A DNA stretch of 64,000 nucleotides from Archangium gephyra (GTDB lineage Bacteria > Myxococcota > Myxococcia > Myxococcales > Myxococcaceae). Shown one piece after another: positions 19,142 through 56,010 of the stretch. Both the position numbers and the translations under genes were made by a program. Where the stretch lies: the NCBI RefSeq assembly GCF_001027285.1, contig NZ_CP011509.1, forward strand, positions 11,556,501 to 11,620,500. The letters are read 5' to 3'. A model generated the notes under the pieces. That model searched no databases and was not told where the DNA came from. It saw nothing but the letters and a program-made list of their open reading frames with translations. Every line of letters begins with the position of its first letter. Position 1 is the first letter of the stretch.

Positions 19142-19534
19142 ATGAAGTCCTCCCCTCCGACCCGCTGCCTCGTGTCGTGCCTCGTCCTCCCCCTGGCCCT
19201 GCTCTTCCCCCTGGCGGTCCACGCCCAGCAGGACGCGGGCACCCGGGACGCGGGCAGTGTGTATGACGTCCCGGACGCCTCGGTGGGAGGGGGAGGCGCG
19301 GACCGGGACAACCCGGAGGGAGACGACTCCACGGGCCGGCCGGGAGGCGCCTGCCGCAGCGGCAATGACTGCGCGGCGCGCTTCAGTTGCACCCAGGGTG
19401 TGTGCCGTTACACCGGCATCCGCCAGGCGGACCGGGTGGGCTGCCTGTTGGGCCCGGAGGACTCCCTGGCGGTGGTGGGGCTGGGCCTGGGGCTGGTGCT
19501 GGCGGCGCGCCGGCGGGGCGGAGGGAGACAGTGA
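19142..19534 (+). CDS. Small secreted protein with MYXO-CTERM-like C-terminus
   Basis: A 130-residue exported protein. A signal peptide (CLVSCLVLPLALLFPLAVHA) is followed by an Asp/Gly-rich spacer, a compact Cys motif (CRSGNDCAARFSCTQGVC) and a C-terminus made of Cys, a hydrophobic helix (LAVVGLGLGLVLA) and ARRRGGG. This Cys/helix/Arg arrangement is that of the MYXO-CTERM sorting signal. Its TGA overlaps the GTG of the methyltransferase gene, so the two are translationally coupled, an odd pairing of a surface protein with a cytoplasmic enzyme. Confidence 0.75.
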   Translation: MKSSPPTRCLVSCLVLPLALLFPLAVHAQQDAGTRDAGSVYDVPDASVGGGGADRDNPEGDDSTGRPGGACRSGNDCAARFSCTQGVCRYTGIRQADRVGCLLGPEDSLAVVGLGLGLVLAARRRGGGRQ

Positions 19535-21970: not shown

Positions 21971-21978
21971 GGGAGTGC

Positions 21979-24913: not shown

Positions 24914-25258
24914 ATGCACCGGCAGGAGATTCTCGATCACGTCCGCAACATCATCCTGGCCACCAACAATGGCCTGTTCCCGGACGACGTGAGCGAGTTC
25001 GCCTCGATGACGTATGATCTGGGCATGGATTCCTTCCATCTCGAGTCGATGATCTCCCGGCTCAAGGACGAAGTGGCCGACATCGAGTTCACCCCCTGGT
25101 ACATCAAGGCGTCGCGCCGCGGGCACGACACCGTGGGCAGCCTGGTGGACTTCATCGATGAGCGGCTGGTGCGCTCCGTCCCCGCCGAGCTGCCCGAGGG
25201 CCGCGCCACGCACCTCTCCAACGCCGGGCCAGCTGAGCTCGACGTGGAGGTTGCATGA
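24914..25258 (+). CDS. Acyl carrier protein-like protein (type III PKS operon 1)
   Basis: A 114-residue carrier protein. The phosphopantetheine site is in YDLGMDSFHLESM, with Ser40 in a DSF context in place of the usual DSL/DSM. The body is the four-helix ACP length plus a 25-residue Ala/Glu-rich C-terminal tail. Its TGA overlaps the ATG of the type III PKS gene. It lies between an acyl-AMP ligase and a ketosynthase-type enzyme, so it probably carries the fatty-acyl starter from ligase to PKS. ACP identity rests on the Ser motif, the size and the context. Confidence 0.8.
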   Translation: MHRQEILDHVRNIILATNNGLFPDDVSEFASMTYDLGMDSFHLESMISRLKDEVADIEFTPWYIKASRRGHDTVGSLVDFIDERLVRSVPAELPEGRATHLSNAGPAELDVEVA

Positions 25259-26313
25259 GTCGGGCAGCACCCCTGCGCCCCACCCTGCTGTCCATTGCCT
25301 CGGCCACGCCCCCGCTCTCCCTCACGCAAGAGGAGATGTACGAGGGGCTGCTCAAGCACTGGTACAAGGATCTGCCCAACGCCGAGCGGATGATCAAGAA
25401 CACGGGCGTGCGCCGGCGCCACTTCGCGTGGGATCCGCGCGAGGAGCTCAAGGACGGCAACAAGGGCCTGAGCGAGCGCGTGCGCGTCTTCGAGCGCGTG
25501 GGCCTGGAGATCACCAGCCAGTCCGTGGAGAAGGCCCTGGGCACCCTGGACCGCTCCAAGGTGGGCGCCTTCACCATGACGACCAACTCGGGCTACTCGG
25601 GCCCGGGCCTGGATCTGTTCACCGCGAAGAAGCTGGGGCTCAAGTCGAACATCCGCCGCACCTTCGTGGGCCACATGGGCTGCTTCGCGGCCTTCCCGGT
25701 GCTGCGCACGGCCATGGACAGCATCAGCGCGCGCCCGGACGAGTACGTCATCGCCAACGCCTCCGAGTACAGCTCGCTGCAGTTCCGCAATGACGCGGAC
25801 TCGGAGCAGGCCGTCATCATGGGCCTGTTCGGAGACGCGGCGTGCTCGCTGGTGATGGGCAGCGCCCCGGAGGGCGAGGGCGTCCAGTTCCTCCGCTCGC
25901 ACACGGAGCAGCTCTACGAGACGAACGAGCTGATGGGCTGGCACATGTACACCGACGGGTTCAAGATGACCCTGTCGCCGTACGTGCCCTTCGTGCTGGC
26001 CGAGCACATCGACGCCTTCCTGGAGAAGCTGCTGGGCCCGGAGAAGCTGGGCAAGGCGGACATCAAGCACTGGCTCATCCACCCGGGCGGGCCCAAGATC
26101 CTCGAGGCCATTGCCCGGCAGCTCAAGCTGGACAAGTCGGCCATGCGCGCCAGCTGGCACGTGCTGAGCGAGTACGGCAACTGCGGCTGCGTCACGGCGC
26201 TGCTGGTGCTGGAAGAGGCGTTGAAGACGGACAAGCCCCAGCGCGGCGAGTACGGCGTGATGATGGGTTTCGGCCCCGGCCTCACCGTCGAGGGCATGCT
26301 GGTCCGTTTCTGA
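25255..26313 (+). CDS. Type III polyketide synthase (chalcone-synthase-like), operon 1
   Basis: A 352-residue thiolase-fold condensing enzyme. The catalytic triad is Cys143 (GHMGCFAAF), His276 (HPGGPKILEAI) and Asn309 (SEYGNCGC). The C-terminal GFGPGLTVEGMLV is the chalcone-synthase signature loop. These features separate it from FabH-type KASIII, although both share the fold. Such enzymes extend acyl starters with malonyl-CoA to alkylpyrones or resorcinols. It overlaps the ACP gene by ATGA and is followed after 43 bp by the acyl-AMP ligase gene. Confidence 0.88.
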   Translation: MSRAAPLRPTLLSIASATPPLSLTQEEMYEGLLKHWYKDLPNAERMIKNTGVRRRHFAWDPREELKDGNKGLSERVRVFERVGLEITSQSVEKALGTLDRSKVGAFTMTTNSGYSGPGLDLFTAKKLGLKSNIRRTFVGHMGCFAAFPVLRTAMDSISARPDEYVIANASEYSSLQFRNDADSEQAVIMGLFGDAACSLVMGSAPEGEGVQFLRSHTEQLYETNELMGWHMYTDGFKMTLSPYVPFVLAEHIDAFLEKLLGPEKLGKADIKHWLIHPGGPKILEAIARQLKLDKSAMRASWHVLSEYGNCGCVTALLVLEEALKTDKPQRGEYGVMMGFGPGLTVEGMLVRF

Positions 26314-26356
26314 GTCCAGGCAGGGAGCGCCGGTCCTTCACCGAGGTCAGACAGCG

Positions 26357-28198
26357 ATGAGCCAGGAACCTCTGCGCCGCCAGACGGGGTCCGTGCAACT
26401 GGGCCCCGGGGTGGGGCGCCACCCCAGCCGTGAGATCGCCCAGCGGGGGCCCACCCGCGCCCACGTCGCGCCGGTGCGGACACTCGCCGAGGCCGTGGCG
26501 CACTGGGCGCGCACCCGTCCCTCGCAGCCGCTCTTCTACTTCGCGGACCTGGAGGAGAAGCTCACCGTCCTCACCGCGGGGGACCTGCACCACAACGCGC
26601 TGCGCATCGCCGCCCACCTGCACGCGCGCGGCGTGCGCCAGGGCGACAAGGTGGTGCTCTCCTTCGACACCAGCCCCGAGTTCCTCGAGAGCTTCTTCGC
26701 CTGCGGCCTGGTGGGCGCCACCCCCTGCCTCATCGAGCTGCCCTCCTCGAAGGTGTCCGTGCGCGCCTGGGGCGAGCGGCTGAGGGTGAAGCTGCGCCTG
26801 CTGGAAGCGCGGGCCATGCTCATCGACCCGGACTTCGCGGACCTGGCGCACGAGGCCCTGCTGGAGCCGGCGGCCGAGCCGGGCCACCCCGCCCCCTTCG
26901 TGGCCACCGTGAAGGAGCTGGCCGGCGAGGCCCCCTCCTTCGAGCCCCCCACCGCCAACGCCGACGACACCGCCTTCATCCAGTTCACCTCGGGCACCAC
27001 GGACGCTCCCAAGGGCGTTCAAATCTCCCACCGCGCGCTGTTCGCCAACTGCGCGGCCATGGGGGAGATCAGCCAGTGGAACTCGGATGACCTGATGGTG
27101 TGCTGGCTGCCGCTGTTCCACGACATGGGACTGGTGGCCTCCACGCTGGCCTCCTTCGTCCACGGGATTCCCACGGCGCTGCTGCCGCCCTTCGGCTTCC
27201 TGCTCAAGCCGGCGCGCTGGCTGTGGGCCATCCACTACTTCCGCGCCACCTCGTCCTTCGCGCCCAACTTCGCCTACCAGCTGTGCGTCAAGCGCATCAA
27301 GGACGCGGAGCTCGAGGGCCTGGACCTGAGCGCGTGGGAGCGGGCCTACAACGCCGCCGAGTTCATCCACGCCGACACCGTGCGCCACTTCACCGAGCGC
27401 TTCCAGCCCCACGGCTTCGAGCCGGACACCTGGCGGCCCGCCTACGGCATGGCGGAGATGGTGGTGGGCATCTCCATCCGCGACCGGAATGATCCCTTGC
27501 GCATGGAGACCATCTCCCGCTCGGCGCTGGCCTCGAAGCGGCAGGCCGTGCCCGTGCACGAGAGCGGCCCGGACGCGCTCACCGTGCTCAGCGTGGGCCG
27601 GGTGCTGCGCGGCATCGATCTCCGCATCGTCGACGACGAGGGCCGCGAGCTGGGCGAGCGCCAGGAAGGCGAGATCCTCCTGCGCGGCACCTCGCTCTTC
27701 GGTGGCTACTTCAAGAACCCGGAGGCCACCGGCGCCGTGCTGCGCGAGGGCTGGCTGCACACCGGGGACCTGGGTTACCTCGCCGAGGGCCAGCTCTTCA
27801 TCTGCGGGCGCAGCAAGGATCTCATCATCAAGGCCGGCGAGAACCACCACCCGTACACCATGGAGAGCGCCGCCGCCCAGGTGACCGGGGTGCGTGCCGG
27901 CTGCGTGGCCGCCGTGGGCGTCAACAACCTCCAGACGGGCACCGAGGACATCGTCCTCGTGTGCGAGACCACCGAGACCAAGCACGACGTGCTGCGCCAG
28001 CAGTGCAAGCACGTGGAGGAGATGGTCTACCAGGGCTCCGGCGTGCGCCCCAACCGCGTCATCCCCGTGGCCCCCCACACCCTCCCCAAGACGACCAGCG
28101 GTAAAATCAAACGCGCCTACATCCGGCAGAACATCGAGGCCTTCGAGAACCTCTCCCTGCTGGTGACGCCTCCCGCCCGTCAGTCCATCGTCCACTGA
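26357..28198 (+). CDS. Fatty acyl-AMP ligase (FAAL)-like enzyme, operon 1
   Basis: A 613-residue adenylate-forming enzyme. The AMP-binding loop FIQFTSGTTDAPKGVQISH (about 207-225) is followed by WLPLFHDMGL, typical of fatty acyl-AMP ligases, and YGMAEMVVG. The adenylation hinge region has LHTGDLGYLAEGQLFICGRSKDLIIKAGENH. The Lys at the end is in LPKTTSGKIKR. FAALs load acyl groups onto ACPs rather than onto CoA; with the ACP gene in the same operon, that is the likely reaction. The family cannot be fully separated from acyl-CoA ligases without checking the FAAL insertion. The 5' part has a 40-residue extension. Confidence 0.87.
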   Translation: MSQEPLRRQTGSVQLGPGVGRHPSREIAQRGPTRAHVAPVRTLAEAVAHWARTRPSQPLFYFADLEEKLTVLTAGDLHHNALRIAAHLHARGVRQGDKVVLSFDTSPEFLESFFACGLVGATPCLIELPSSKVSVRAWGERLRVKLRLLEARAMLIDPDFADLAHEALLEPAAEPGHPAPFVATVKELAGEAPSFEPPTANADDTAFIQFTSGTTDAPKGVQISHRALFANCAAMGEISQWNSDDLMVCWLPLFHDMGLVASTLASFVHGIPTALLPPFGFLLKPARWLWAIHYFRATSSFAPNFAYQLCVKRIKDAELEGLDLSAWERAYNAAEFIHADTVRHFTERFQPHGFEPDTWRPAYGMAEMVVGISIRDRNDPLRMETISRSALASKRQAVPVHESGPDALTVLSVGRVLRGIDLRIVDDEGRELGERQEGEILLRGTSLFGGYFKNPEATGAVLREGWLHTGDLGYLAEGQLFICGRSKDLIIKAGENHHPYTMESAAAQVTGVRAGCVAAVGVNNLQTGTEDIVLVCETTETKHDVLRQQCKHVEEMVYQGSGVRPNRVIPVAPHTLPKTTSGKIKRAYIRQNIEAFENLSLLVTPPARQSIVH

Positions 28199-28315: not shown

Positions 28316-29212
28316 ATGGCCCGTAGCGTTTCGATGAGTGGCAGGTTCGCGGTTGTCGTGGGTGCCGTGCTCGCGTTGGGGGGTTGCACCGGCGCCGAGC
28401 AGAAGCCGGCCGAGGAGCAGCCGCCGGCGGCGCAGCAGAGCACCCCCCAGCACGGTTGTGCCACCCCGACGCCGTCCGTGCAGGAGCAGGAGGCCGTGGA
28501 GGACACCCTCCGCACGGCGCTCGCGGGCCGCGTGGAGGCCCAGGCCCTCACCCCGGTGACCATCACCGTCTACGCCCACGTCATCCGTGATTCGAACGGC
28601 CTGGGCGGCGTGACCTCCGTGCAGGTCTCCAACCAGCTCAACGTCCTCAACAACGCCTACGCGAGCTGTGGGTTCAACTTCACCGTGGCGAGCATGGACA
28701 TCACCAACAACAGCACCTGGTACACCGCCAGCCCCGGGAGCGCCGCCGAAGCGGCCATGAAGAACACGCTGCGCAAGGGCACCGCGGACGACCTGAACCT
28801 GTACTTCAGCAAACCAGGTGGCGGCCTGCTCGGCTGGGCGACCTTCCCCTGGAGCTACGCCTCCAGCCCCAAGCTGGACGGCGTGGTCGTCCTCAACAGC
28901 TCCGTGCCCGGCGGCACCGCGGCCCCCTACAACCTGGGCGACACCGCCACCCACGAGGTCGGCCACTGGCTGGGCCTGTACCACACCTTCCAGGGCAACT
29001 GCGCCGAGCCCAATGACTACGTCAGCGACACCCCGGCCCACTCCGGCGCCACCTACGGCTGCCCCGTGGGCAGCGACACCTGCGCCTCCACCGGCGTGGA
29101 CCCCATCACCAACTTCATGAACTACACGGACGACGCCTGTATGACCCAGTTCACCTCGGGCCAGTGCTCGCGCATCCAGTCCATGTGGAGCACCTACCGC
29201 GCCGGCAAGTAG
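28316..29212 (+). CDS. M43-type zinc metalloprotease lipoprotein, paralog 1
   Basis: A 298-residue secreted zinc protease. The signal VVVGAVLALGGCTGAEQKP has a lipobox Cys. After a short Pro/Gln spacer and propeptide-like stretch comes the catalytic domain with the extended zinc motif [11 protein letters not shown] and the downstream Met-turn NFMNYTDDAC, the layout of pappalysin/cytophagalysin (MEROPS M43). Cys pairs near [10 protein letters not shown] and YGCP fit disulfides. It should act at the cell surface on extracellular protein, useful for predation. It shares leader, lipobox and domain with the paralogs at 29453, 30590 and 32015. The ATG follows CGAGGAGT. Confidence 0.93.
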   Translation: MARSVSMSGRFAVVVGAVLALGGCTGAEQKPAEEQPPAAQQSTPQHGCATPTPSVQEQEAVEDTLRTALAGRVEAQALTPVTITVYAHVIRDSNGLGGVTSVQVSNQLNVLNNAYASCGFNFTVASMDITNNSTWYTASPGSAAEAAMKNTLRKGTADDLNLYFSKPGGGLLGWATFPWSYASSPKLDGVVVLNSSVPGGTAAPYNLGDTATHEVGHWLGLYHTFQGNCAEPNDYVSDTPAHSGATYGCPVGSDTCASTGVDPITNFMNYTDDACMTQFTSGQCSRIQSMWSTYRAGK

Positions 29213-29423: not shown

Positions 29424-29452
29424 ACTTGAGAACTTTTCCCGAGGAGTTGGAA

Positions 29453-30340
29453 ATGTCCCGTAGCGCTATCTCGATGGGTGGCAAGTTCGCGGTGGTCGTG
29501 GGCGCGGTTCTCGCTCTGGGCGGTTGCACCAGCGCCGAGCAGAAGCCGGCCGAGGAGCAGCAGCCCACCCAGCAGGCCACCAAGAGTGGCTGTGCCACGG
29601 TGGACCTGACCGAGGCCGAGAAGGCCACGGTGGAGCAGGCCATCGCCGGCCGCGTGTCCGCCCAGGCCCGCGCCAACGGCTCGGTGAACTTCAAGGTCTA
29701 CTGGCACGTCATCAATAACGGCACGGGCCTCGCCAACGGTGACATCCCCCAGACGCAGATCGACAACTCGATCGCCGTGCTGAACGCCGCGTACCGCAAC
29801 ACCCCGTTCACCTTCACCCTGGCGAGCGTGGACCGCACCACCAACTCCACCTGGTACACCTGCGCCGGTGGCGGCTGCGAGTCGAAGATGAAGAGCGCGC
29901 TGCGCAAGGGCGGCGCGGGCGACCTCAACGTCTACTCCAACAACATGGGCCGTGGCCTGCTCGGCTGGGCGACCTTCCCCTCCAGCTACGCCTCCAGCCC
30001 CCTCATGGACGGCGTGGTCATCCTCTACAGCTCCGTGCCCGGCGGCACCGCGGCCCCGTACAACGAGGGCGACACCCTCACCCACGAGGTCGGTCACTGG
30101 GTGGGCCTGTACCACACCTTCCAGGGTGGCTGCGTGGATCCGGGTGACTACGTGAGCGACACCCCGGCCGAGTCCGGCGCCGCCTACGGCTGCCCGACGG
30201 GCCGCAACACCTGCGCCGCCACCGGCCTGGACCCCATCACCAACTTCATGGACTACACCGACGACGCGTGCATGAACACGTTCTCGGCCGGCCAGGCCGA
30301 CCGCGCCGACGCGCTGGTCGCCCAGTACCGCGGCCTGTGA
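29453..30340 (+). CDS. M43-type zinc metalloprotease lipoprotein, paralog 2
   Basis: A 295-residue protein in tandem with paralog 1. The signal [22 protein letters not shown] is nearly identical to its neighbours. The zinc motif [17 protein letters not shown] and the Met-turn [18 protein letters not shown] are intact. The ATG at 29453 was chosen because GAGGAG lies 6 bases upstream and the paralogs start at the same point. Each tandem copy has its own promoter and terminator, so this is a duplicated gene array rather than an operon. Confidence 0.93.
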   Translation: MSRSAISMGGKFAVVVGAVLALGGCTSAEQKPAEEQQPTQQATKSGCATVDLTEAEKATVEQAIAGRVSAQARANGSVNFKVYWHVINNGTGLANGDIPQTQIDNSIAVLNAAYRNTPFTFTLASVDRTTNSTWYTCAGGGCESKMKSALRKGGAGDLNVYSNNMGRGLLGWATFPSSYASSPLMDGVVILYSSVPGGTAAPYNEGDTLTHEVGHWVGLYHTFQGGCVDPGDYVSDTPAESGAAYGCPTGRNTCAATGLDPITNFMDYTDDACMNTFSAGQADRADALVAQYRGL

Positions 30341-30560: not shown

Positions 30561-30589
30561 ATGCAGCAACTATTTCCGAGGAGATGGAA

Positions 30590-31486
30590 ATGTCCGGTAG
30601 CGTTATCTCGAAGGGTGGAAAGTTCGCGGTCGTGCTGAGTGCCGTCGTCGCGTTGGGGGGTTGCACCAGCGCCGAGCAGAAGCCGGCCGAGGAGCAGCAG
30701 CCCGCGCCCACGCAGCAGATCGTCAAGAGCGGCTGCGCCACGCCGACCCCGTCCGAGAACGAGACCGAGTCCGTGCAGGCGATGCTCAACGAGTATCGCG
30801 GTGCGATGGCCGCCACCGGCTCCATCACCATCAACACCTACGTCCACGTCATCAACAAGGGCACGGGCGCGTCCAACGGCGACATCTCCGACACGATGAT
30901 CGCCGATCAGATGGCGGTGCTCAACGCGGCCTACGCCAACACCCCGTTCCGCTTCACCCTGGTGAGCACGGACCGCACCACCAACAGCACCTGGTACACC
31001 GCCGGCCCGGACACCACGGCCGAGGCGGCCATGAAGAACGCGCTGCGCAAGGGCACCGCGGACGACCTGAACATGTACTTCAGCAGCCCCGGTGGCGGCC
31101 TGCTCGGCTGGGCGACCTTCCCCAACTGGTACGCGGGCGCCCCCAAGGATGACGGCGTGGTCATCCTCAACAGCTCGCTGCCCGGCGGCTCCGCGGCTCC
31201 GTACAACCTGGGCGACACGGCCACCCACGAGGTGGGACACTGGCTGGGCCTGTACCACACGTTCCAGGGCGGCTGCCAGAAGAACAACGACTACGTGAGC
31301 GACACCCCGGCCGAGCAGTCCGAGGCCTTCGGTTGCCCCACCGGCCGCGACACCTGCCGCACCACCGGCCTGGACCCCATCACCAACTTCATGGACTACA
31401 CCGACGACGCCTGCATGAACACGTTCAGCGCCGGCCAGATCGCCCGCATGGACTCGTTCTGGGCGACCTACCGCGCGGGCAAGTAG
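30590..31486 (+). CDS. M43-type zinc metalloprotease lipoprotein, paralog 3
   Basis: A 298-residue lipoprotein protease with signal [22 protein letters not shown], zinc motif [17 protein letters not shown] and Met-turn [14 protein letters not shown]. Of two nearby ATGs the second was taken because it aligns with the paralog 2 start and lies a proper distance from CGAGGAG. Its spacing of residues before the catalytic domain differs from paralogs 1 and 2, suggesting propeptide divergence. Own promoter and strong terminator. Confidence 0.93.
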
Positions 31487-32014: not shown

Positions 32015-32896
32015 CTACTTGCCCAGGCGGTACGAGTTCCACATGCTGTTCATGCGGCTGTTCTGGCCGGCGCTGAACGTGTTCATGCAGGAGTCGTAGG
32101 AGTAGTCCATGAAGTTGGTGATCGGGTCCAGACCGGCGTAGGTCGGGCAGCTGTCGCGGCCGGTGGGGCAACCGGAGGCGCCGGACTGCTCGGCCGGGGT
32201 GTCGCTCACGCTGTCGTTGGTGCTGGTGCAGCCGCCCTGGAACGTGTGGTACAGGCCCATCCAGTGGCCGACCTCGTGGGTGCCCGTGTCGCCCTGGTTG
32301 TAGTTGGTGGCCGAGCCGCCGGGCAGCGAGCTCTGGAGCACCACCACGCCGTCCATCTTCGGGCTGGAGGCGTAGCTCCAGGGGAACGTGGCCCAGCCGA
32401 GCAGGCCGCCGCCCATGTTGTTGGTGTAGAAGTTGAGGGCGGTCGCCGTGCCCTTGCGCAGGGCGTTCTTCATGTTCGTCTCACACGTGCCACCGGAGCA
32501 GGTGTAGTACGAGTCGTTGTTCGTATAGTCCGTGCCGGCCAGATAGAAGCTGAAGCCCGCCGCCGCGTAGGCGTTGTTGAGGACGGTGATCTGGTTGTTG
32601 ATCTGCGTGGTGGTCACGCCGCCACCGCCGGCGCTGGTGCGGATGACGTGGAAGTACACGGGGATGGAGGCGCCCATGGCGTGCACGCTGCCGCCCATCG
32701 CCTGACGCGCCTGCAGGGCGTCAAAGCGGGCCTCGATCTGCGCGACCTGCTCCTCGTCGAAGGACTCGGCGCCGCAGTTGCGGGGATCGGCGACCTGCGC
32801 CTCCACGCCGGCAACCTGCTCCGCCTCGTCCACGGGGCCGCAGCCCGTCATCGCCGCAACCGCACCGAACACCAGAATCGACTTGATCGTCCGCAT
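32015..32896 (-). CDS. M43-type zinc metalloprotease lipoprotein, paralog 4 (diverged)
   Basis: A 293-residue paralog on the opposite strand. The signal [23 protein letters not shown] ends in a lipobox but is unlike the other three. The propeptide ([19 protein letters not shown]) also differs. The catalytic part is close to the others: [22 protein letters not shown]-like Cys pattern and [18 protein letters not shown]. It was probably duplicated earlier than the tandem three. The promoter upstream has the same -35/-10 spacing plus a short inverted repeat. Confidence 0.93.
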
Positions 32897-34443: not shown

Positions 34444-36072
34444 TCACCTGGAGCGCGCCCGCCGGACCCGATTCAGCAGGAGCGAGAGCCCCAGCAAGGC
34501 CAGCGGCGCGAGCGGCGGCACCGCCGTTCCACAGCCACACCCTCCGGGTTGTCCGTCCTGGCACGAGGGACCCTCGCCACTCCCCGCGTCCGTCCCCAGG
34601 CCCGCGTCCGGCGCATCCCCCGTCGAGCCTCCATCACCCAGGCTCCCGCCATCCGGCTCACCGCCACCACCATCCGGAGCCGTCGCCCCACCATCCGGAG
34701 CCGTCGCCCCACCATCCGGAGCCGTCGCCCCACCATCCGGAGCCGTCGCCCCACCATCCGGAGCCGTCGCTCCACCATCCGGGCCCACGTCCCCACCATC
34801 GGGAGCCGTTGCCCCACCATCGGGAGCCGTTGCCCCACCATCCGGAGCCGTTCCCCCGCCATCCGGGCCCATCCCTCCGTCCGTGCCCACTCCACCTCCA
34901 TCCGGGCTCGAGGAATCCGGAGGCATGCACGCCCCCGCCTGACACGTCCCGCCCGGACAGGCCGTCCCATCCGTCACGGCGGGGAAGGAGCAGGTGCCCG
35001 CCGCATCACAGACACCGACGTGGCATGCATCGGGCGCCGTGCAGTCCGAGCCCATCCTGCACTGCACACAGACATGGTCACGGGAACGGGCCACGCAGAA
35101 GGGAGTCCCTTCGCCGCAAGGCGAGCACGAGGCTCCGCAGAAGCGCGCCGTATCACAGACATCGCACACCGCCGCGGCATTGCAGTGATAGCCCGTGCCA
35201 CAGCCACTGTTGCCCGAGGTGTCCGCGTCCTTGCGATTGCATTGAGCACACCTGTCGAGCTCCGAGTACGAGGGCTGCCCCGTCTCGGACTGGTAGAACA
35301 TCTCGGGCGTGACCAGGTTGAAACCCGAATCCCGGAGACTGATGACCGGCGTCTGGTTGGCTGGCCGCTCGAAGTCCGAGAACGGCCCCTCGAGCATCGA
35401 CATCTCGAGCGCGGCGTGCTCGCTGACCTCGGCGTAGAGCACCTCGACGGGGTAGAGGCCCGGCTTCGTGAAGGTGACGCTGTTGGTCGTGCGCCAGCTC
35501 GCGAAACCGAGCTGCGGTGGCCGGTTGATGACCGTGTAGCGGCGGAAAGAGCCATCGTAGATCGCGAACGCCACCGCGTCGTCGGCATAGAACCCGAAGT
35601 GGAGAGGCTGGCCCACCTGGTCCGGGGTGACGTTCAGGTAGCCACGCAGGCGGGTGGCGAAGGAGGTGGCCGTGTCGTTGACGAAGAAGCCGCAGCCACC
35701 GCTCGCACATCCCGGCACGGCGCTCTCGAAATCACCGTAGCTCAGCCTCAACCCCGAGCTGTTGTTGTTGGAGAGATCCAACGGCGTCCGGAGCACCGAC
35801 GTGACCCGTGTGTTGGGATTGGCGGCATCGGGCGAAGCCTCCAGGAACGTATTGAGCCCCCCTGAGAAGCTCGCGTTGGCCTGGGGAAAGTCCAAGCCCG
35901 GGTTCGTCGAGCTCCTCGACGTGGAGCAGAGGCCGGTGCCCGGCAGCGTGGGCGAGGGTGCGAAAGGGTCCCCCGTCACCACCACCGAGGGAAGGGACTC
36001 CGCGAAGGCGGGTCCAGGGCCAGTGGAGAGCAACACGGACAGGAAGACCAGGAAGCGTCGGAGATGGAGCAT
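34444..36072 (-). CDS. TraA-like surface protein: PA14-like domain, Cys-rich repeats, MYXO-CTERM
   Basis: A 542-residue exported protein. A signal peptide ending in GPAFA is followed by a PA14-like domain (about 60-240) with FGFYADDAVAFAIYDG and GLYPVEVLYAEVSEHAALEMS, then a Cys-rich block with repeated C-x2-C and C-x5-C patterns. Next is a low-complexity run of PDGGATA repeats, then a MYXO-CTERM end (CGCGTAVPPLAPLALLGLSLLL then RVRRARSR). This order matches TraA, the outer-membrane exchange receptor of Myxococcus. The protein is shorter and no TraB-like OmpA gene is adjacent, so it may be a paralog with another role. Assignment is from domain order and motif recall. Confidence 0.7.
   Translation of the reverse strand: MLHLRRFLVFLSVLLSTGPGPAFAESLPSVVVTGDPFAPSPTLPGTGLCSTSRSSTNPGLDFPQANASFSGGLNTFLEASPDAANPNTRVTSVLRTPLDLSNNNSSGLRLSYGDFESAVPGCASGGCGFFVNDTATSFATRLRGYLNVTPDQVGQPLHFGFYADDAVAFAIYDGSFRRYTVINRPPQLGFASWRTTNSVTFTKPGLYPVEVLYAEVSEHAALEMSMLEGPFSDFERPANQTPVISLRDSGFNLVTPEMFYQSETGQPSYSELDRCAQCNRKDADTSGNSGCGTGYHCNAAAVCDVCDTARFCGASCSPCGEGTPFCVARSRDHVCVQCRMGSDCTAPDACHVGVCDAAGTCSFPAVTDGTACPGGTCQAGACMPPDSSSPDGGGVGTDGGMGPDGGGTAPDGGATAPDGGATAPDGGDVGPDGGATAPDGGATAPDGGATAPDGGATAPDGGATAPDGGGGEPDGGSLGDGGSTGDAPDAGLGTDAGSGEGPSCQDGQPGGCGCGTAVPPLAPLALLGLSLLLNRVRRARSR
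34668..34873. repeat. Tandem 18-bp repeat coding PDGGATA units
   Basis: About ten imperfect copies of an 18-bp unit (CCACCATCCGGAGCCGTC on the plus strand), with a third-position variant (CCATCGGGAGC). They encode the DGG/ATA spacer before the MYXO-CTERM of the TraA-like protein. Copy number should vary between strains. Confidence 0.75.
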
Positions 36073-36224: not shown

Positions 36225-38387
36225 TTACGGGCAATCCGACGGCTTCACGAAGGACTCGGTGACCGACGGCACCGACGAGCCCTTGGAGCGAACGAGGGTC
36301 GCCTTCGCGCCGACGCCGACGCCGTACTTCGCGAACGCGTCCCACACCAGGCAGCGGTGCGCATTGCCGGCATTGGCCACCGACTGCAGGATGCCATCGC
36401 GCATGTGCTCGTAGTACGGCGCGGCAGGCGTGTAGTTCATGCCGTCCACCAGGTACGTCATCAGCGTGTCCTTGGACACGCCCGCGGCCTGGAAGTTGAG
36501 CCACAGCTGCCAGCCAATCGCACCGTACACCTCACCATCGAAGTGCACGCCGCTGCCCGTCACGGCACCGTAGGTGCGCGGGTAGTTGGTGTACGGCGCA
36601 CTGCGGATGCCCAGGTCGCTCGAGGCCGAGTACTCACCCACGCGGTCGTTGTTGTTGAGGATCACCGCCAGCACGTCGCTCATGCCCTCGCCGATGGCAC
36701 CGGAGATGGGGCCACTCATCGAGCCGATCATGCGCCAGGTCAAGCCGTGCCCGTACTCGTGGTAGACGACGTCGGAGTCCACCGACGAGTCACGCTGCAG
36801 CGGCGCCGACGGCGACTTGCGGATGGTGCCGTACACGCCGGTGACCGAGCGCAGCGTCGCGCCCGTCGTCTGGCCGACGAACACGGACGGGATGGTGATG
36901 GTGGTGTCCGCGCCCCCCATCGTCATCACACCATCGCCCTGGTTGTTGGCGATGATCGCCGCCTTGGCGCCCGCGAGCTGCGCGTTCTTCACCTTCACCA
37001 CGAAACCGCAGACGCCACGGTCGAGCAGCGCGATCTTCCCGGTGAGCGAGCCGGACGGAATGCTCTCGCAGCCGTCGCTGGTGGTGCCCACACCATCGTT
37101 GACGAGCACGATGTCACCGGTGACGCCGGTGGTGGTGAGCGCCGGGCCAAACTCACCGTCGCCCTGCGCCACGTAGTTGCCGGCGATGGACACCGGCAGC
37201 TGCACGTTGACCTGGTGGGTGCCCACGCCCGTCCACAGGTACATCTGCATGCGCGGGTTGGAGCCGTCGGCCGGCGTCGAGAAGTTCGCGTTGTCGGTTC
37301 CGCTGCCGTCCTGCGCCTCGGCGTCCACGGAGTCGCTGCCCGCGCCGCCCTTGCCGAAGTTGTTCTCCTGGAAGTTCAGCCCCGCCTCGTTGAAGCCGTA
37401 GCGGTAGAGCGTGTCGTGGATGACGTTGTTCAGGTAGAACAGGTTCTGCACGGACACGTCGCGGTTGGCGTTGGTGGTCGGCGCCTGCGTCAGGTCCGCC
37501 ACGGCGAGGAAGTCCCCGCTCGTCACCGCGGTGCCACCGGTGTCCGGGGCGTTGTTCGCGTCCACGTCCAGGTAGGCCCGGACGTTGTTGCCGGAGATCA
37601 GCCGCGTGGTGAGACCGGAGGTGTTGAGCCAGCCGATCGGCGACTGCGCGTTGCCCGTGCCCGCGCCCGTCACGATGGCCTGCGGGGTCTTCACCGGATC
37701 ATTCGGGAAGACGTTGTACCGGTCGTTGGCGGTGCGCGACTCGGTGGAGAGCACCCGGCCCTCGCCGCTCACCAGCGTGTGCGTGAGCTGGTTGCTCCTG
37801 GCCGTCCAGGTCTCCACCAGGAAGCCCGTGCGCAGAGCCCCGTTGGCCGCGGCGTAGGCGACGCGCTCGGCCGTCGGGTTGCGGTGGAAGAAGACGCCAC
37901 CGGCGAAGGAGACGGTGTTGCCCTCGCGCGACTGCTCCGCCGGCTGCGTGTCGCGCAGCTCGGGGTAGAGATGGCGCAGCGCGAGGCCCACCGCGTCGGA
38001 CTCGGACACGCGCGCCGAGACCACCGGGCCCGCGGCCGCCGTGCCGTCGATGAAGTGGATCAGCTCGCCCCGGCCGTTCACCGCCGCCTTGGCGTAGGCG
38101 CCGTGAACACGCAGGCCTCCCACGTACTGCTCGAAACGGACGTGGGTGATGTCACCCTGGCGCGCCTCGGTCCCCCGCAGGGAGCCGACGGTCGCCTCCG
38201 ACGTCCCGCGCGAGCGCAGGAAGCCGGCCGCGATCGCGCTCGCCCCGGAACGCGAAGGCGCCGTCAGGGCGCGCTCCGACTGGAACACCCGCGCTCTCGT
38301 CTCCGCGACCTCGTCACCCGAGACGGGGGCGGCGCTGGCCACACTCGAAAACGTCACAAGTCCGATCACTGCGTTGCGAAGACGCAT
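36225..38387 (-). CDS. M36 (fungalysin-type) metalloprotease with PA domain
   Basis: A 720-residue secreted zinc endopeptidase. The signal peptide MRLRNAVIGLVTFSSVASA is followed by an FTP-like propeptide with YVGGLRVHGAYAKAAVNGRGELIHFIDG. The catalytic domain has HEYGHGLTWRM and the third ligand in GAIGEGMSDVLAV, the gluzincin arrangement. A protease-associated (PA) domain is inserted before HEXXH (GKIALLDRGVCGFVVKVKNAQLAGAKAAIIANN). The propeptide implies autoprocessing outside the cell. Start set at the signal peptide Met. A TATAAG -10 element lies upstream. A predation or nutrient-scavenging role is likely. Confidence 0.95.
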   Translation of the reverse strand: MRLRNAVIGLVTFSSVASAAPVSGDEVAETRARVFQSERALTAPSRSGASAIAAGFLRSRGTSEATVGSLRGTEARQGDITHVRFEQYVGGLRVHGAYAKAAVNGRGELIHFIDGTAAAGPVVSARVSESDAVGLALRHLYPELRDTQPAEQSREGNTVSFAGGVFFHRNPTAERVAYAAANGALRTGFLVETWTARSNQLTHTLVSGEGRVLSTESRTANDRYNVFPNDPVKTPQAIVTGAGTGNAQSPIGWLNTSGLTTRLISGNNVRAYLDVDANNAPDTGGTAVTSGDFLAVADLTQAPTTNANRDVSVQNLFYLNNVIHDTLYRYGFNEAGLNFQENNFGKGGAGSDSVDAEAQDGSGTDNANFSTPADGSNPRMQMYLWTGVGTHQVNVQLPVSIAGNYVAQGDGEFGPALTTTGVTGDIVLVNDGVGTTSDGCESIPSGSLTGKIALLDRGVCGFVVKVKNAQLAGAKAAIIANNQGDGVMTMGGADTTITIPSVFVGQTTGATLRSVTGVYGTIRKSPSAPLQRDSSVDSDVVYHEYGHGLTWRMIGSMSGPISGAIGEGMSDVLAVILNNNDRVGEYSASSDLGIRSAPYTNYPRTYGAVTGSGVHFDGEVYGAIGWQLWLNFQAAGVSKDTLMTYLVDGMNYTPAAPYYEHMRDGILQSVANAGNAHRCLVWDAFAKYGVGVGAKATLVRSKGSSVPSVTESFVKPSDCP

Positions 38388-38436
38388 CTCTTCTCCCGGT
38401 GAGCACCACGTGGACGAAAACGCGAACTGCTCTCGT

Positions 38437-38442
38437 CTTATA
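38437..38442 (-). promoter_or_regulatory. Likely -10 element of M36 protease promoter
   Basis: TATAAG on the minus strand, in CTTATAAG, about 50 bp upstream of the ATG, with T-rich DNA (TTTCTT) 17 bp further up as a weak -35. This is the same -10 as M43 paralogs 1 and 2. Confidence 0.45.
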
Positions 38443-38601
38443 AGAAACCTGCAAAACAAAAGAAAGCCGTACTGCTTCGGATTCGTACCTTTTCAGCGAG
38501 ATTGGAAATCCAACGCCGCGGGCCAAGGGGAGACCCTGCCCCGCTGGCACCGGCCACGGCGCTGGGTGGATGGGGCTGGAGCGCTCGCGCGCCGGGTGCG
38601 C

Positions 38602-39696
38602 CTACACGATGGCGTGGGCGAGAATCCGCTCGAAGACGCGCGGATTCGTGCCCAGCCAGCGCACTAGGGGACGGCGCAGCGCCGGCCTGCGCGCCAACAT
38701 CAACATGGCCCCCGTCAGCCACGCGTACTTGCGGAACGCGCGCTGGAAGACCCGCTCGTAGGGCAGCAGGGACTCGCGCGTCCCGCCCTTCGCCAGTGCG
38801 TCCGGCAGCAGGTGTCCCAGCGCCTCCGCGCACGTGAAGGCCAGGGACAGGCCCTCCCCCGTCACCGCGTCCACGTACCCCGCCGCGTCCCCCACCAGCG
38901 CGAAGCGGTCCGCCACCCGCGCCCGCGCCGCCCTCGCCAGCGGCCCCGCGCCTCGCGCCTTCGAGTCCGGCTCCGCGCCCACCACCCGCTCCGCCAGCGA
39001 GGGGAAGCGCGTGAGCAGGGACTCGAAGCCGATGCGCCCCGGCAGCCCGTCCGTCCACAAGAAGGCCACGCCCACCCGCTCCTCACCGGCCGGCGTCACG
39101 TACGCCTCCACACCGTCCGACAGGTGCACCTCCACGAAGGGCGCCCATGGCTTCATCCGGAAGTGCCGCCGCAGCCCGAAGCGCCTCGGCCCCAACACCT
39201 CCAGCTCCAGGCCCTCGGCGCGCCGCAGCGGCGAGGCCAGCCCGTCCGCCGCCACCAGCATCCGCGCCCGCAGCGGCCCGGCCGCCGTCTCCACCTCCCA
39301 CCCGACCACCGTGCGCCGCTGGCCCACCACCGCGCAGTGCTCGCGCAGCTCCACGCCGAGCTCCCTCGCCCGCGCGGCCATCGCCGTCACCAGCGCCACC
39401 CGCCGTACCCCCAGGCCCCCGGGCGCCGGCAACCGTCCCTCCGCGCCGCTCCCGTCCTCCTGCACGTAGCGGATGCCCACGAAGGGGGCGCACTCGCGCC
39501 GATCCAGCAACGCGAGCGCCCCGAAGCGCTCCAGCGCCGCCACGCCCGAGGGCATCAGCCCCTCACCACACGCCTTGTCCGGAGGCACGGCGGCGCGCTC
39601 CAGCACCACCGTGTTGAGGCCCCGCTTCGCGGTGGTGAGCGCCACCGCCAGCCCCGCGGGCCCTCCTCCCACCACCGCCACGTCCCAGGCGCTCAC
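38602..39696 (-). CDS. FAD-dependent oxidoreductase (geranylgeranyl-reductase/hydroxylase-like), PKS operon 2
   Basis: A 364-residue flavoprotein. The FAD motif is VAVVGGGPAGLAVALTTAKRG, followed by CGEGLMPSGVAALE, typical of the geranylgeranyl reductase and PHBH-like group, and the second FAD contact FALVGDAAGYVDAVTGEGLSLA. The GTG start overlaps the acyl-AMP ligase stop (GTGA). As last gene of the type III PKS operon it could hydroxylate the polyketide ring, like the flavoprotein in Streptomyces srsABC, or reduce an acyl chain. The sequence does not settle which. Confidence 0.88.
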   Translation of the reverse strand: MSAWDVAVVGGGPAGLAVALTTAKRGLNTVVLERAAVPPDKACGEGLMPSGVAALERFGALALLDRRECAPFVGIRYVQEDGSGAEGRLPAPGGLGVRRVALVTAMAARARELGVELREHCAVVGQRRTVVGWEVETAAGPLRARMLVAADGLASPLRRAEGLELEVLGPRRFGLRRHFRMKPWAPFVEVHLSDGVEAYVTPAGEERVGVAFLWTDGLPGRIGFESLLTRFPSLAERVVGAEPDSKARGAGPLARAARARVADRFALVGDAAGYVDAVTGEGLSLAFTCAEALGHLLPDALAKGGTRESLLPYERVFQRAFRKYAWLTGAMLMLARRPALRRPLVRWLGTNPRVFERILAHAIV

Positions 39697-41447
39697 TCGT
39701 CGCGTCCCGAGCGGGCGAAGGCCAGGGCACTCTTCGCCATCTCCACCACCAGCCCCACCGTCCCCACCTTCCTGGGCGCCGTCAGCTCGCCCGCGAGGTA
39801 GCGCCGCAAGGCCTCGCTCCGGCGCAGCTTCCCGCTCGAGGTACGCGGCAGCGTCCCCGGCTCCAGCACCCGCACCGTGTGCGCCTTCACCCCCGTGCCC
39901 GCCAGCACCGCCTCGCGAATCCGCTCCTCCAGGCCCGCCGCTCCCGCGCCCGGCGCGTGCTCGGCCAGCACCAGCAGCGCCTCGTCGTTCTCTCCCTCGG
40001 GGGTGAAGCCGAGCGCCACCGCGCAGCCCGTGCGCAGGCCCTCCACCGCCTCCAGGCACTCCTCGAACTCCTGGGGCGCGTGGTTGGCGCCACGGATGAT
40101 GACCAGGTCCTTCGCCCGGCCCGTGAGGAACAGCTCGCCGTCCGCCTCGAAGCCCAGGTCTCCCGTGTCCAGCCAGCCCTCGGCGTCCAGCGCGCGCGCC
40201 GTCGCCTCCGGGTGGCCCACGTACCCCGCCATCACCGACGGCCCTCGCGCGAACACCCGCCCCACCCGCCGCTCCTCCAGCACGTGGCCCAGCTCGTCCC
40301 GCACCTGCACCTCGAAGCCCGGCACCGGACGCCCCACGGACACCACCTCGCGCGCGCCCTCCACCACGCGCCGCTCCGTGGCCAGCACCCGCGCGTCCAC
40401 GCCCAGCGCGCGCGGCCCCCGTCCCGCCGGCGGGAAGGTGACGGCCAGCGAGGCCTCGCTCAACCCGTACACCGGCCGCAGCGAGCCCGCCTGGAAGCCC
40501 CACCGGGAGAAGCGCTCGGAGAAGAGGCGCAGCGTCTCCACCGACACCGGCTCCGCGCCGTTGAGCGCGTGCGTCCAGCCCGACAGGTCCACCCCCTCCA
40601 GGTCCGCGTCCTTCACCCGCTTGAGGCACAGCCCGTAGGCGAAGTTGGGCGCGGGCGAGACGAAACCCCGGTGCCTCGACAGCGCGCGCAGCCACAGCGC
40701 CGGCCGCGCGAGGAACACCTCGGGGGGAATCAGCACCATGCCGCCCGGGTAGTACACCGCCGACAGCAGGCAGCCGATGAGCCCCATGTCGTGGTACAGC
40801 GGCAGCCAGCACACGCCCACCGGCGCCCGGTCCACCGGCGGCGGCAGCTCCGCCTCCAGCGCCGCGAGCTGCGCCATCAGGTGGCCCTGACGCAGCCCCA
40901 CCGGCTTCGGGTCCACCGTCGAGCCCGAGGAGAACTGGATGAGGGCGAGCGACTCGGGCGAGACACGCTCGGCCAGGTCCCCGTCCTCGCGGGACACCTC
41001 CTCCACCGTGTGGCAGCCGAGCCTCGGACGCGCCGCCGCCACGGACGCGCCCAGCAGCAGCCGCACCTTCGCGTCCGTGAGCACCACCGCCGCCGCCGAC
41101 ACCTCCAGCATGCGCGCGGTGGAGCGGTGGTACTCCTCCAGCCGGCCCAACCGCACCGGCGGGTAGAGCGGCACCGGCACCGCGCCCGCCAGCAGCGCGC
41201 CGAAGAAGGCATCCATGAAGCCCGGCGAGGTGGGCAACAGCAACGCCACGCGCTCGCCAGGAGCCACCCCCAGGCGCCTCAGGCCCGCGGCGAAACGGCG
41301 CGCCCGCCCATACACCTGCGCCCAGGTCAGCAGCGTCTCGCGCTCCCCGGCGTCCACGAAGACGAGCCCCAGCGGCGTCCGCGCCGCGGCGGCGAGCGCC
41401 TCGTTGAGGGTGGCGTGCTTCAGCGCCGGCAACGCCGGGCCCTTCAT
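39693..41447 (-). CDS. Fatty acyl-AMP ligase (FAAL)-like enzyme, PKS operon 2
   Basis: A 584-residue adenylate-forming enzyme. The AMP loop is LIQFSSGSTVDPKPVGLRQGH (a divergent Lys/Pro end), with WLPLYHDMGLIGC, YGLSEASLA, GWLDTGDLGFEADGELFLTGRAKDLVIIRGANH and the terminal LPRTSSGKLRR. HDMGLIG and RGANH are characteristic of FAALs. It overlaps the ACP gene (ATGA) and the flavoprotein gene (GTGA). The likely reaction is activation of a fatty acid and loading onto the adjacent ACP for the type III PKS. Confidence 0.9.
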   Translation of the reverse strand: MKGPALPALKHATLNEALAAAARTPLGLVFVDAGERETLLTWAQVYGRARRFAAGLRRLGVAPGERVALLLPTSPGFMDAFFGALLAGAVPVPLYPPVRLGRLEEYHRSTARMLEVSAAAVVLTDAKVRLLLGASVAAARPRLGCHTVEEVSREDGDLAERVSPESLALIQFSSGSTVDPKPVGLRQGHLMAQLAALEAELPPPVDRAPVGVCWLPLYHDMGLIGCLLSAVYYPGGMVLIPPEVFLARPALWLRALSRHRGFVSPAPNFAYGLCLKRVKDADLEGVDLSGWTHALNGAEPVSVETLRLFSERFSRWGFQAGSLRPVYGLSEASLAVTFPPAGRGPRALGVDARVLATERRVVEGAREVVSVGRPVPGFEVQVRDELGHVLEERRVGRVFARGPSVMAGYVGHPEATARALDAEGWLDTGDLGFEADGELFLTGRAKDLVIIRGANHAPQEFEECLEAVEGLRTGCAVALGFTPEGENDEALLVLAEHAPGAGAAGLEERIREAVLAGTGVKAHTVRVLEPGTLPRTSSGKLRRSEALRRYLAGELTAPRKVGTVGLVVEMAKSALAFARSGRDE

Positions 41448-41722
41448 GAGGCACCTCCCGCGGCCGCCCGAGGCTCCTCGGCGGCCTTCGCGGCCACCAG
41501 CCGCATCAGGTCCCCCACGGTGTTCACCCCCACCGAGTCCTCCATGGAGAGGCGGATGCGGAAGTGGTTCTCCAGCTCCACCGCCAGCACCGTCAGCCCC
41601 ATGCTGTCCAGCTGCAGGTCCTTCATCAGGTGGTGCGAGGGTTCCACCTCCGCCGGCCAGTCCAGCTCCTGGGAGACGATGCGGCGTATCTCGACAAGCA
41701 CGGCGAGCTCGTTCTCAACCAC
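41444..41722 (-). CDS. Acyl carrier protein, PKS operon 2
   Basis: A 92-residue ACP. The phosphopantetheine Ser40 lies in LMKDLQLDSMGLTVLAVELENHF, a canonical site. It starts with GTG/ATG overlapping the methyltransferase stop by 8 bp and ends overlapping the ligase ATG. It is the presumed acyl shuttle between ligase and type III PKS. It differs from the operon 1 ACP, where the site reads DSF and a longer tail is present. Confidence 0.92.
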   Translation of the reverse strand: MVENELAVLVEIRRIVSQELDWPAEVEPSHHLMKDLQLDSMGLTVLAVELENHFRIRLSMEDSVGVNTVGDLMRLVAAKAAEEPRAAAGGAS

Positions 41723-42287
41723 GGGGCACCTCCGGAATGAAGCGGGGCCTGTCGGCGAAAGCCTCGGCGTAGAGCGCGCCCATCGCCTCCTCCTCTGCGC
41801 GGATGCGCACGCGGAGCAGCAGGGCGTTGCCCAGCGAGAAGACGAGGGCCGTCACCCAGGCCCCGTGGATGAGCGGCACCGCGGCCAGCTCCAGCACCAC
41901 CGCCACGTAGTTGGGGTGGCGCAGGAAACGGTACGGCCCGCGCGTCACCGGCTCCAGGCCGGGCACCACGATGATGCGCGTGTTCCACCGGTCTCCCAGC
42001 GAGGCGATGGCCCAGTAGCGCAGCGCCTGCGCCACCAGCGCCACGCCCAGTGCCCCGAAGCCCAGCGCCCCCGGAAAGGGACGGGAGAGCCCCACCACCT
42101 CGGCCACACACGCCACGAGGAAGAGCGAGTGGAGCACCACCATCACCCGGTAATGGGCCTGTCCCGTCTCCACCCCGCCACGCGCGAAGGCCCGCGCCGC
42201 GTTGCGCTTGGAGAGGACGAGCTCCACCAGCCGCTCGGCGCCGAGCAGCCCCAGGAAGCCAAGATATCCCCCGAGCGTGCTCACCAT
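41715..42287 (-). CDS. Isoprenylcysteine carboxyl methyltransferase (ICMT)-like membrane methyltransferase
   Basis: A 190-residue membrane protein with about four hydrophobic helices. The ICMT-family SAM motif is VPGLEPVTRGPYRFLRHPNYVAVVLE, followed by RIRAEEEAMGALYAEAFADRPRFIPEV. Enzymes of this family beside type III PKS genes (SrsB in Streptomyces, BpsB in Bacillus) O-methylate alkylpyrones or resorcinols, so the same is likely here. The ATG overlaps the PKS stop by 7 bp. Confidence 0.9.
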   Translation of the reverse strand: MVSTLGGYLGFLGLLGAERLVELVLSKRNAARAFARGGVETGQAHYRVMVVLHSLFLVACVAEVVGLSRPFPGALGFGALGVALVAQALRYWAIASLGDRWNTRIIVVPGLEPVTRGPYRFLRHPNYVAVVLELAAVPLIHGAWVTALVFSLGNALLLRVRIRAEEEAMGALYAEAFADRPRFIPEVPRG

Positions 42288-43360
42288 CGCAGCAGCACCA
42301 GCTCGGCGCAGAAGCCCGGGCCCATGGCCATCATCACGCCCCAGTCCCCCGGTTGGGCCTCGCCCGACTCGAGCATCTCGCCCAACACGAAGAGCACCGA
42401 GGCCGAGGACAGGTTGCCCACCTCGCGCAGAGAGGCCCACGAGCGCTTGAGCGCATCCGGGGGAAGCTCCAGCGCCTCCTCGAAGGCCTGCAACACCTTG
42501 GGGCCGCCGGTGTGCGCCACCCAGTGCTTCACGTCCTCGCGCTTGAGGCCATGCTCGGCGAGGAAACCATCCACGTCCCGGCCGATGAACTCGCGCGCCA
42601 GCTGCGGCACCTTCGCCGACAGCACCACCTTGAAGCCCGTGTCCACCACATCCCAGCCCATGACGCGCTCGGTGTTCGGATACATCACCGAGCGCGTGGC
42701 CACGACGCGAGGGCCGGCGCCCGGGCGCTCGCCCCCCTGCAACACGACGCACGCCGCCCCGTCTCCGAAGAGTCCCGAGGCGATGATGTTGGGAATGGAC
42801 AGGTCCTCGCGCTGCAACGTCAGCGAGCACAGCTCCACGGAGACGAGCAGCGCCGTGTGGCCTTTCCACGCCCGGAGGTAGTCCGAGGCCCGCGCCGTGC
42901 CCGCCGCGCCCGCCACGCAGCCGAGTCCGAAGATGGGCGTGCGCTTCATGTCCGGGCGCATGCCCAGCCGGTTCATCAGCCGCGCCTCGATGCTCGGCGT
43001 GGCGATGCCCGTCACGGTGACGAAGAAGACATGGTCCACGTCCTGGGGGGTGAGCCCCGCGCGGTCCAAGGCCTTGCGCACCACCTGCTCACCCAGGTCC
43101 GTGGCGACCTGGATCCACGCGTCGTTGCGCTGCTGGAAGGTGATGAGCTTGGGATACTGCTCGATGGGCAGCGCGAGGAACCGCCCATCCACCTGCACCG
43201 AGCGGTGCAGATCCTCCAGCCGCTCGAGGTTGTAATGGCGGGTGGCCCAGAGCTCGCGCAGGGCGCCGATGATCTGGTCCTGGCGGGCGTAGTGGGGAGG
43301 AAGCATTCGCTCCACCGCGCGGATGACGGGAAACGAGTCCTGACCTGGTGTGGAGTTCAT
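42281..43360 (-). CDS. Type III polyketide synthase, operon 2
   Basis: A 359-residue chalcone-synthase-like enzyme with catalytic Cys148 (FGLGCVAGAAG), His283 (AHTGGPKVLQAF) and Asn316 (REVGNLSSAS), and TGIATPSIEARLMNRLGM in the malonyl-binding region. The C-terminal loop is AMGPGFCAELVLLRW. It is a clearer type III PKS than the one in operon 1 and only distantly alike. First gene of a five-gene operon. The start was set at MNSTPGQDSFPV; an in-frame ATG at 43405 would add 15 residues. Confidence 0.94.
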   Translation of the reverse strand: MNSTPGQDSFPVIRAVERMLPPHYARQDQIIGALRELWATRHYNLERLEDLHRSVQVDGRFLALPIEQYPKLITFQQRNDAWIQVATDLGEQVVRKALDRAGLTPQDVDHVFFVTVTGIATPSIEARLMNRLGMRPDMKRTPIFGLGCVAGAAGTARASDYLRAWKGHTALLVSVELCSLTLQREDLSIPNIIASGLFGDGAACVVLQGGERPGAGPRVVATRSVMYPNTERVMGWDVVDTGFKVVLSAKVPQLAREFIGRDVDGFLAEHGLKREDVKHWVAHTGGPKVLQAFEEALELPPDALKRSWASLREVGNLSSASVLFVLGEMLESGEAQPGDWGVMMAMGPGFCAELVLLRW

Positions 43361-55962: not shown

Positions 55963-56010
55963 GCGCATCCAGCGCTTGGCAAAACCGCCGCCCCTCCTAG
56001 GATGGGCGGC

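Follow-up and report, generated by a model that had tools for sequence, protein, structure and literature searches.

Within a 64,000-nucleotide stretch of the Archangium gephyra genome (hereafter the window), which is part of a single contig of 12.49 Mb, five adjoining minus-strand genes encode a type III polyketide synthase (PKS), an ICMT-like methyltransferase (MT), an acyl carrier protein (ACP), a fatty acyl-AMP ligase (FAAL) and a FAD-dependent oxidoreductase (FAD protein); a second module with its own PKS lies 10 kb away (Table 1). Read from the sequence, the five genes occupy 38602-43360, where a preliminary description of this DNA had put them, and family matches bear out the identity it gave to each. 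The overlaps it described are likewise present at all four junctions: the PKS stop codon (42281-42283) runs over the MT start by 4 bases (GTG at 42284) or 7 bases (ATG at 42287), the MT stop (41715-41717) over the ACP GTG at 41722 by 8 bases, the ACP stop (41444-41446) over the FAAL ATG at 41447 by 4 bases, and the FAAL stop (39693-39695) over the GTG of the FAD gene at 39696 by 4 bases.

Table 1. Genes of the five-gene operon and of the second module, in coordinates of the window
Feature	Coordinates	Strand	Basis or remark
Type III polyketide synthase, FtpA orthologue (very probable), 359 aa	42281..43360	-	PF02797/PF00195
ICMT-family methyltransferase (MT)	41715..42284	-	PF04140 5.4e-29; GTG start 42284 or ATG 42287
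Acyl carrier protein (ACP), 92 aa	41444..41722	-	PF00550 4.5e-10
Fatty acyl-AMP ligase (FAAL; probable), 584 aa	39693..41447	-	PF00501 3.8e-58; best solved relatives are FAALs
FAD-dependent oxidoreductase, aromatic hydroxylase / geranylgeranyl-reductase superfamily, 364 aa	38602..39696	-	PF01494/PF01266
Divergent acyl carrier protein (ACP2)	24914..25258	+	GMDS motif, profile matches
Second type III PKS (PKS2)	25255..26313	+	30% identical to first PKS
Second FAAL (FAAL2)	26357..28198	+	37% identical to first FAAL

The window PKS shares 95% identity with its counterpart in Archangium violaceum Cb vi76 and 92% with the one in A. lansinium, and the first of these figures argues that the five open reading frames (ORFs) are real genes and not chance frames. 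A scan for promoters and terminators found no promoter-like site and one terminator-like site vs. 1.7 expected. We surveyed the junctions in 28 loci, some of them short of a gene or truncated at the edge of a contig. Each gene was assumed to begin at whichever start codon lies closest to the stop of the gene before it, a choice biased towards overlap. The PKS-MT and ACP-FAAL junctions overlapped in most of these loci, as in the window, and the MT-ACP junction mostly showed an 8-base overlap or a 4-base gap; the FAAL-FAD junction was often gapped, by up to 655 bases. All four junctions overlapped in 5 of the 28 loci (L005, L006, L018, L026 and L029). Full overlap is real in the window, yet it is no general trait of the operon.

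A search of an 84,980-species collection with the PKS as query yielded 46 loci. Among the genomes compared, Myxococcus xanthus AM003 (L043) carries the same five genes in collinear order, with identities of 78% (PKS), 78% (MT), 63% (ACP), 73% (FAAL) and 69% (FAD protein); it differs at the FAAL-FAD junction, which is overlapped in the window and holds a 72-base gap in AM003, counted from the nearest start codon. Since the genome of AM003, a different strain from that of the 2011 paper (Hayashi et al., ChemBioChem 12:2166), has a single PF00195 match, the type III PKS described from M. xanthus in published work is very probably orthologous to the window PKS. By its title, as cited in PMC10896814, PMC5916927 and PMC5006271, the 2011 paper presents this enzyme, FtpA, as a FAAL-dependent alkylresorcylic acid synthase. 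The excerpted literature further indicates that 1) the M. xanthus alkylresorcylic acid pathway comprises a stilbene synthase, a methyltransferase, an AMP-dependent synthetase and a monooxygenase (PMC5006271); 2) FtpA uses malonyl- and methylmalonyl-CoA (PMC5916927); 3) the products of SrsA and FtpA are oxidised to alkylquinones in Streptomyces griseus and M. xanthus (PMC10896814); 4) a M. xanthus FAAL-ACP pair, which to judge from neighbouring UniProt numbers is probably the ftp pair, loads fatty acids in vitro (PMC8460268); and 5) a C18 starter is listed (PMC11837247). We surmise, with a probability of roughly three in four, that this Archangium operon is orthologous to ftp of M. xanthus and acts as a FAAL-ACP-fed resorcinol-type lipid pathway; compared with ftp itself, the Archangium operon is known here from its genes alone. 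As such, the operon is already known and is ordinary for the Myxococcaceae.

The preliminary description had likened the operon to Streptomyces srsABC with an added FAAL-ACP starter module. The content of srsABC is a PKS, a methyltransferase and a hydroxylase, a three-gene layout that the window does not reproduce, the ACP and FAAL genes standing between those of the MT and the FAD protein. The assignments of PKS, MT and oxidoreductase implied by the comparison hold, but the nearest system is not srs; it is ftp, collinear in AM003 at 63-78% identity. Nor is srs plus FAAL-ACP a new combination, because the five-gene operon is known, from the available accounts, as ftp of M. xanthus. Type III PKS products are likewise methylated and oxidised to quinones by S. 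griseus srsABC and the Mycobacterium smegmatis pks10 operon, according to PMC10896814 and PMC5916927; compared by description only, these two operons have three genes and no FAAL-ACP, whereas the window has both. The planctomycetal three-gene operons of PMC10896814 also combine a PKS with MT and FAD-dependent oxidoreductase genes, but there the PKS is the last gene (58 of the 96 genes analysed in that study) and the excerpted text mentions no FAAL-ACP.

The catalytic residues Cys148, His283 and Asn316 of the PKS do not vary across an alignment of 14 PKSs, which includes both types present in the window. Trp236, within the motif MGW, is present in 13 of the 14, the exception being a PKS2-type row (L118); by alignment with PKS11, Trp236 would occupy the position of the Trp that PMC5916927 describes as conserved in the resorcinol-forming FtpA, SrsA, PKS10 and PKS11. 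Ser40 of the ACP, in an LDS motif, is shared by all 18 aligned sequences. Solved FAALs are the top structure matches of the ligase (3pbk, 4.4e-84), well above 4-coumarate:CoA ligases (8.1e-37), and it scores 448.7 with the FAAL model NF006624, below the cut-off of 600. The FAAL-ACP starter module proposed earlier is supported, the ligase being probably a FAAL rather than an acyl-CoA ligase.

We postulate that the FAAL would adenylate a free long-chain fatty acid and hand the acyl group to the phosphopantetheine arm of the ACP, and that the PKS would take up this starter, extend it about three times with malonyl-CoA (perhaps methylmalonyl-CoA) and cyclise it to an alkylresorcylic acid or an alkylresorcinol; this lipid would be methylated by the ICMT-like enzyme, and the flavoprotein may hydroxylate the ring to give a methylated hydroquinone or quinone lipid. 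Among the products considered, a methylated, oxidised phenolic lipid or quinone, as the preliminary description had expected, seems the likeliest. Acyl transfer to the ACP, the alkylresorcylic acid and the quinone are carried over into this scheme from excerpted papers on M. xanthus; chain length, the number of extensions, the order of methylation and oxidation and the biological role in Archangium are what we infer.

Among 96 genomes of the family (group f1), matches were found for the PKS in 77 (E <= 1e-60), the MT in 75 (1e-25), the FAD protein in 75 (1e-40) and the FAAL in 71 (1e-130). The tailoring genes evidently go with the PKS: of the 77 genomes with a PKS, an MT match is seen in 75 and a FAD match in 73. 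We read the layouts of these 77 by eye from match coordinates, with the ACP looked at only in fetched loci: 1) PKS-MT-(ACP)-FAAL-FAD in 61, three of which are broken by contig ends (G032, G068, G073) and one of which (G056) has its FAAL in two pieces, visible only in the fetched locus; 2) the same five-gene layout cut by a contig end in two (G059, G095); 3) PKS-MT-FAD without a FAAL match in six (G019-G023, G064); 4) PKS-ACP-FAAL with an adjacent MT-FAD pair elsewhere in six (G043, G045, G046, G051, G052, G053); 5) PKS-ACP-FAAL in G044; and 6) a fragment only in G092. Two further genomes (G086, G099) have FAD and FAAL matches and no PKS match at the threshold used. The six PKS-MT-FAD loci (L133-L137 and L141, from G023, G019, G022, G021, G020 and G064, respectively) have neither a FAAL nor an ACP match; the contig of G064 ends within the FAD gene, and in G021 an unexamined stretch of 1.2 kb precedes the FAD gene.

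Simple loss of MT and FAD can be ruled out for the PKS-ACP-FAAL genomes as a set, six of the seven carrying the adjacent pair elsewhere and only G044 having neither. In quick trees the displaced pairs (L125-L130, from G043, G045, G046, G051, G053 and G052) form one group, with an SH-like approximate likelihood-ratio test (SH-aLRT) value of 99 for the FAD protein and 90 for the MT, the latter on a branch that is not starred; the PKSs of the same genomes are split between two starred groups, of which one contains the Archangium PKSs and the other is of Hyalangium type. The MT-FAD pair thus seems, on tree topology, to travel together, as would suit two tailoring steps in a single pathway, and a displaced pair presumably serves the same pathway as the PKS-ACP-FAAL set. 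Among eight ORFs beside the displaced pairs, covering three of the six loci, there was no evident pathway partner. Outside the family, FAAL-bearing sets occur in two spirochaete metagenome-assembled genomes (MAGs; L040, L045), with no ACP detected in L040; Saccharopolyspora flava (L041) has a three-gene PKS-MT-FAD set, and a Gemmatimonas MAG (L030) has PKS-MT-ACP-FAAL with no FAD match within 3 kb downstream. A second, more distant ftp-type PKS was seen in two genomes of the family (G089:C1:3811825-3813509 and G052:C249:25265-26386, at 39% and 43% identity), the former adjoining an MT of 39% identity. The record labelled 'Comamonas sp. KCTC 72670' (L027) holds a Myxococcus-like ftp operon, which the PKS tree groups with M. 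xanthus; the record is probably a mislabelled genome.

At 24914-28198, facing the operon, is what is most likely a complete ACP2-PKS2-FAAL2 module, the ACP2 stop overlapping the PKS2 start. In this genome the ACP2 ORF is overlooked by Pfam, with no match at E 0.001; it has a GMDS motif. An ACP2 relative lies just upstream of the PKS2-type PKS in 13 of 15 fetched loci (no match in L123 and L124), the Ser is invariant in the alignment of 14, and the alignment profile matches acyl carrier proteins in the PDB (best 1.3e-5). Five of the 14 members match PF00550 (best 2.7e-4), and six give weak hits to an unrelated family of peptidases (best 0.065). When the ACP2 profile was compared with the first ACP, the probability was 76%, and the single-sequence fold had a predicted local distance difference test (pLDDT) score of 60. 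In a 71-row PKS tree the two PKS types stand on opposite sides of a starred branch, the actinobacterial, acidobacterial and spirochaete PKSs falling on the ftp side; this tree was limited to relatives of the two query sequences and is silent on the sister group of PKS2, and it leaves out matches under 250 aa and L116, a duplicate of the L005 genome, hence the A. violaceum PKS2. The low identities of PKS2 and FAAL2 to their counterparts (30% and 37%) argue that they are no recent duplicates, and for the PKS the deep split in the tree likewise rules out a recent duplication in Archangium. PMC12766979, as excerpted, attributes the arrangement in Archangium to gene duplication; with the two window PKSs in deeply separated clades, that reading does not appear to fit, unless other genes were meant, and those marked there may differ from ours.

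Several observations weigh against the ftp-type resorcinol reading, and some of them favour an alternative in which an alkylpyrone is the main product in vivo, the MT produces a methoxypyrone and the part played by the flavoprotein is small or of another kind. A type III PKS is paired with an ICMT-like enzyme for pyrone methyl ethers in Bacillus (BpsA/BpsB). The closest solved structure to the window PKS is Mycobacterium tuberculosis PKS11 (1.9e-97, 330 bits), named an alpha-pyrone synthase by its depositors, and Trp236 does not single out the first PKS, because PKS2 has the Trp too. Excerpted literature ties both alkylresorcylic acid/quinone and alkylpyrone to clusters of this type: a 2025 pan-genome paper (PMC12766979) uses the name alkylpyrone biosynthetic gene cluster (BGC) for a type III PKS cluster that it lists as conserved across seven genera, of which Archangium is one, which is compared with the myxobacterial alkylpyrone cluster BGC0001831 (Hug et al. 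2019) and which we take to be the ftp operon because M. xanthus has one type III PKS. Co-expression of planctomycete PKS, MT and FAD genes gave a resorcinol, probably C-methylated, and no quinone, in the excerpt of PMC10896814, and G044 has no MT or FAD match anywhere in the genome at the thresholds used. Yet the M. xanthus enzyme was published, by its cited title, as an alkylresorcylic acid maker, the Trp is retained at the position that alignment would link to resorcinol formation, and 73 of the 77 genomes with the PKS also carry a FAD gene; we regard a main alkylpyrone product as rather unlikely and keep the resorcinol-type pathway as the preferred reading.

The flavoprotein raises doubts of its own, in that it might be a flavin halogenase or a geranylgeranyl-reductase-type reductase rather than a ring hydroxylase. 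Its AlphaFold2 model, built from a 22-sequence alignment (mean pLDDT 90.6), is nearer to flavin halogenases (PltA, Z 41.9, root-mean-square deviation 2.2 over 356 aligned residues; ChlB4, Z 40.5; Mpy16, Z 40.4) than to p-nitrophenol monooxygenase (36.6), squalene epoxidase (36.1), PHBH (about 35) or the GGR-like 3oz2 (34.6), and the protein reached no NCBIfam cut-off among the 25 models shown, the best being TIGR02032 (GG-red-SF). Halogenases are marked by a catalytic lysine downstream of a GES-like motif and by WxWxIP, geranylgeranyl reductases by YxWxFP, and group A flavin aromatic hydroxylases by GxGxxG, DG and GD. Lysines of the window protein are confined to positions 24, 41, 182, 246, 303 and 323, hence none between residues 42 and 181, where no column of the 22 aligned proteins has Lys in more than 4; WxWx[IF]P occurs in 0 of the 22. 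By these markers a flavin halogenase is rejected, although halogenases top the fold lists. The strict geranylgeranyl reductase falls with its TIGR02032 score (123.6 bits vs. a cut-off of 158.8) and with YxWxFP in 0 of the 22. GGGPAG at 10, AADGLAS at 149 and VGDAAG at 268 supply the hydroxylase motifs, which are not decisive because they are common to the wider superfamily. A halogenase or reductase thus appears very improbable, and a ring hydroxylase is the best remaining reading, though not proven.

It might also be that the operon and the ACP2-PKS2-FAAL2 module form one pathway, with one product from both synthases or a shared carrier or tailoring enzymes. PKS2 is found at >= 62% identity in 11 of the 96 family genomes, and in all 10 genomes from the window's genus (6) or a second genus (g6; 4) its locus faces an ftp-type operon within 30 kb. 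Shared descent alone may account for this linkage in two related genera, however, and three genomes (G051, G053 and G092) have PKS2-type genes on other contigs than the ftp-type PKS, while PKS2 at that identity is absent from 66 of the 77 genomes that hold the ftp-type PKS; neither module needs the other, because each has its own ACP and FAAL. We therefore hold a joint pathway to be quite unlikely. The same doubt attaches to its more specific form, a two-headed phenolic-lipid locus in which two anciently diverged, facing FAAL-ACP-type III PKS modules would share the single MT-FAD pair or join their products.

The operon contributes a further, well-preserved orthologue to a pathway already known across the family and as such matters little. 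The draw of the region is rather the second module, which suggests that the published Archangium 'duplication' needs re-reading, together with the natural layout variants: relatives without FAAL-ACP, or with the MT-FAD pair elsewhere, lend themselves to testing the role of each part by comparison.

Other genes of the window surround these two modules. The 3' end of the operon is adjoined by an M36 fungalysin (36225-38459, minus strand), followed by a 542-aa ORF (34444-36072, minus strand) with many PDGGATA-type repeats and no Pfam match. Four ORFs similar by eye (28316-29212, 29426-30340 and 30584-31486 on the plus strand, 32015-32896 on the minus strand) include two Peptidase_M43 matches, at 28316-29212 and 32015-32896, the only two scanned. 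About 13 kb beyond the operon lies a pentapeptide-repeat protein (56002-56649, plus strand; PF13599, PF00805); proteins of this kind guided a published alkylpyrone discovery, as a review recounts in excerpt, and that account would be the sole tie to the operon. At 20675-22716 (plus strand) a UbiA-family prenyltransferase (NF006088 above cut-off, with decaprenyl-phosphate phosphoribosyltransferase models also matching) is followed by a short-chain dehydrogenase/reductase (NF005489 above cut-off, DprE2 match below cut-off), and an O-methyltransferase-like gene (19387-20571) lies beside this pair.

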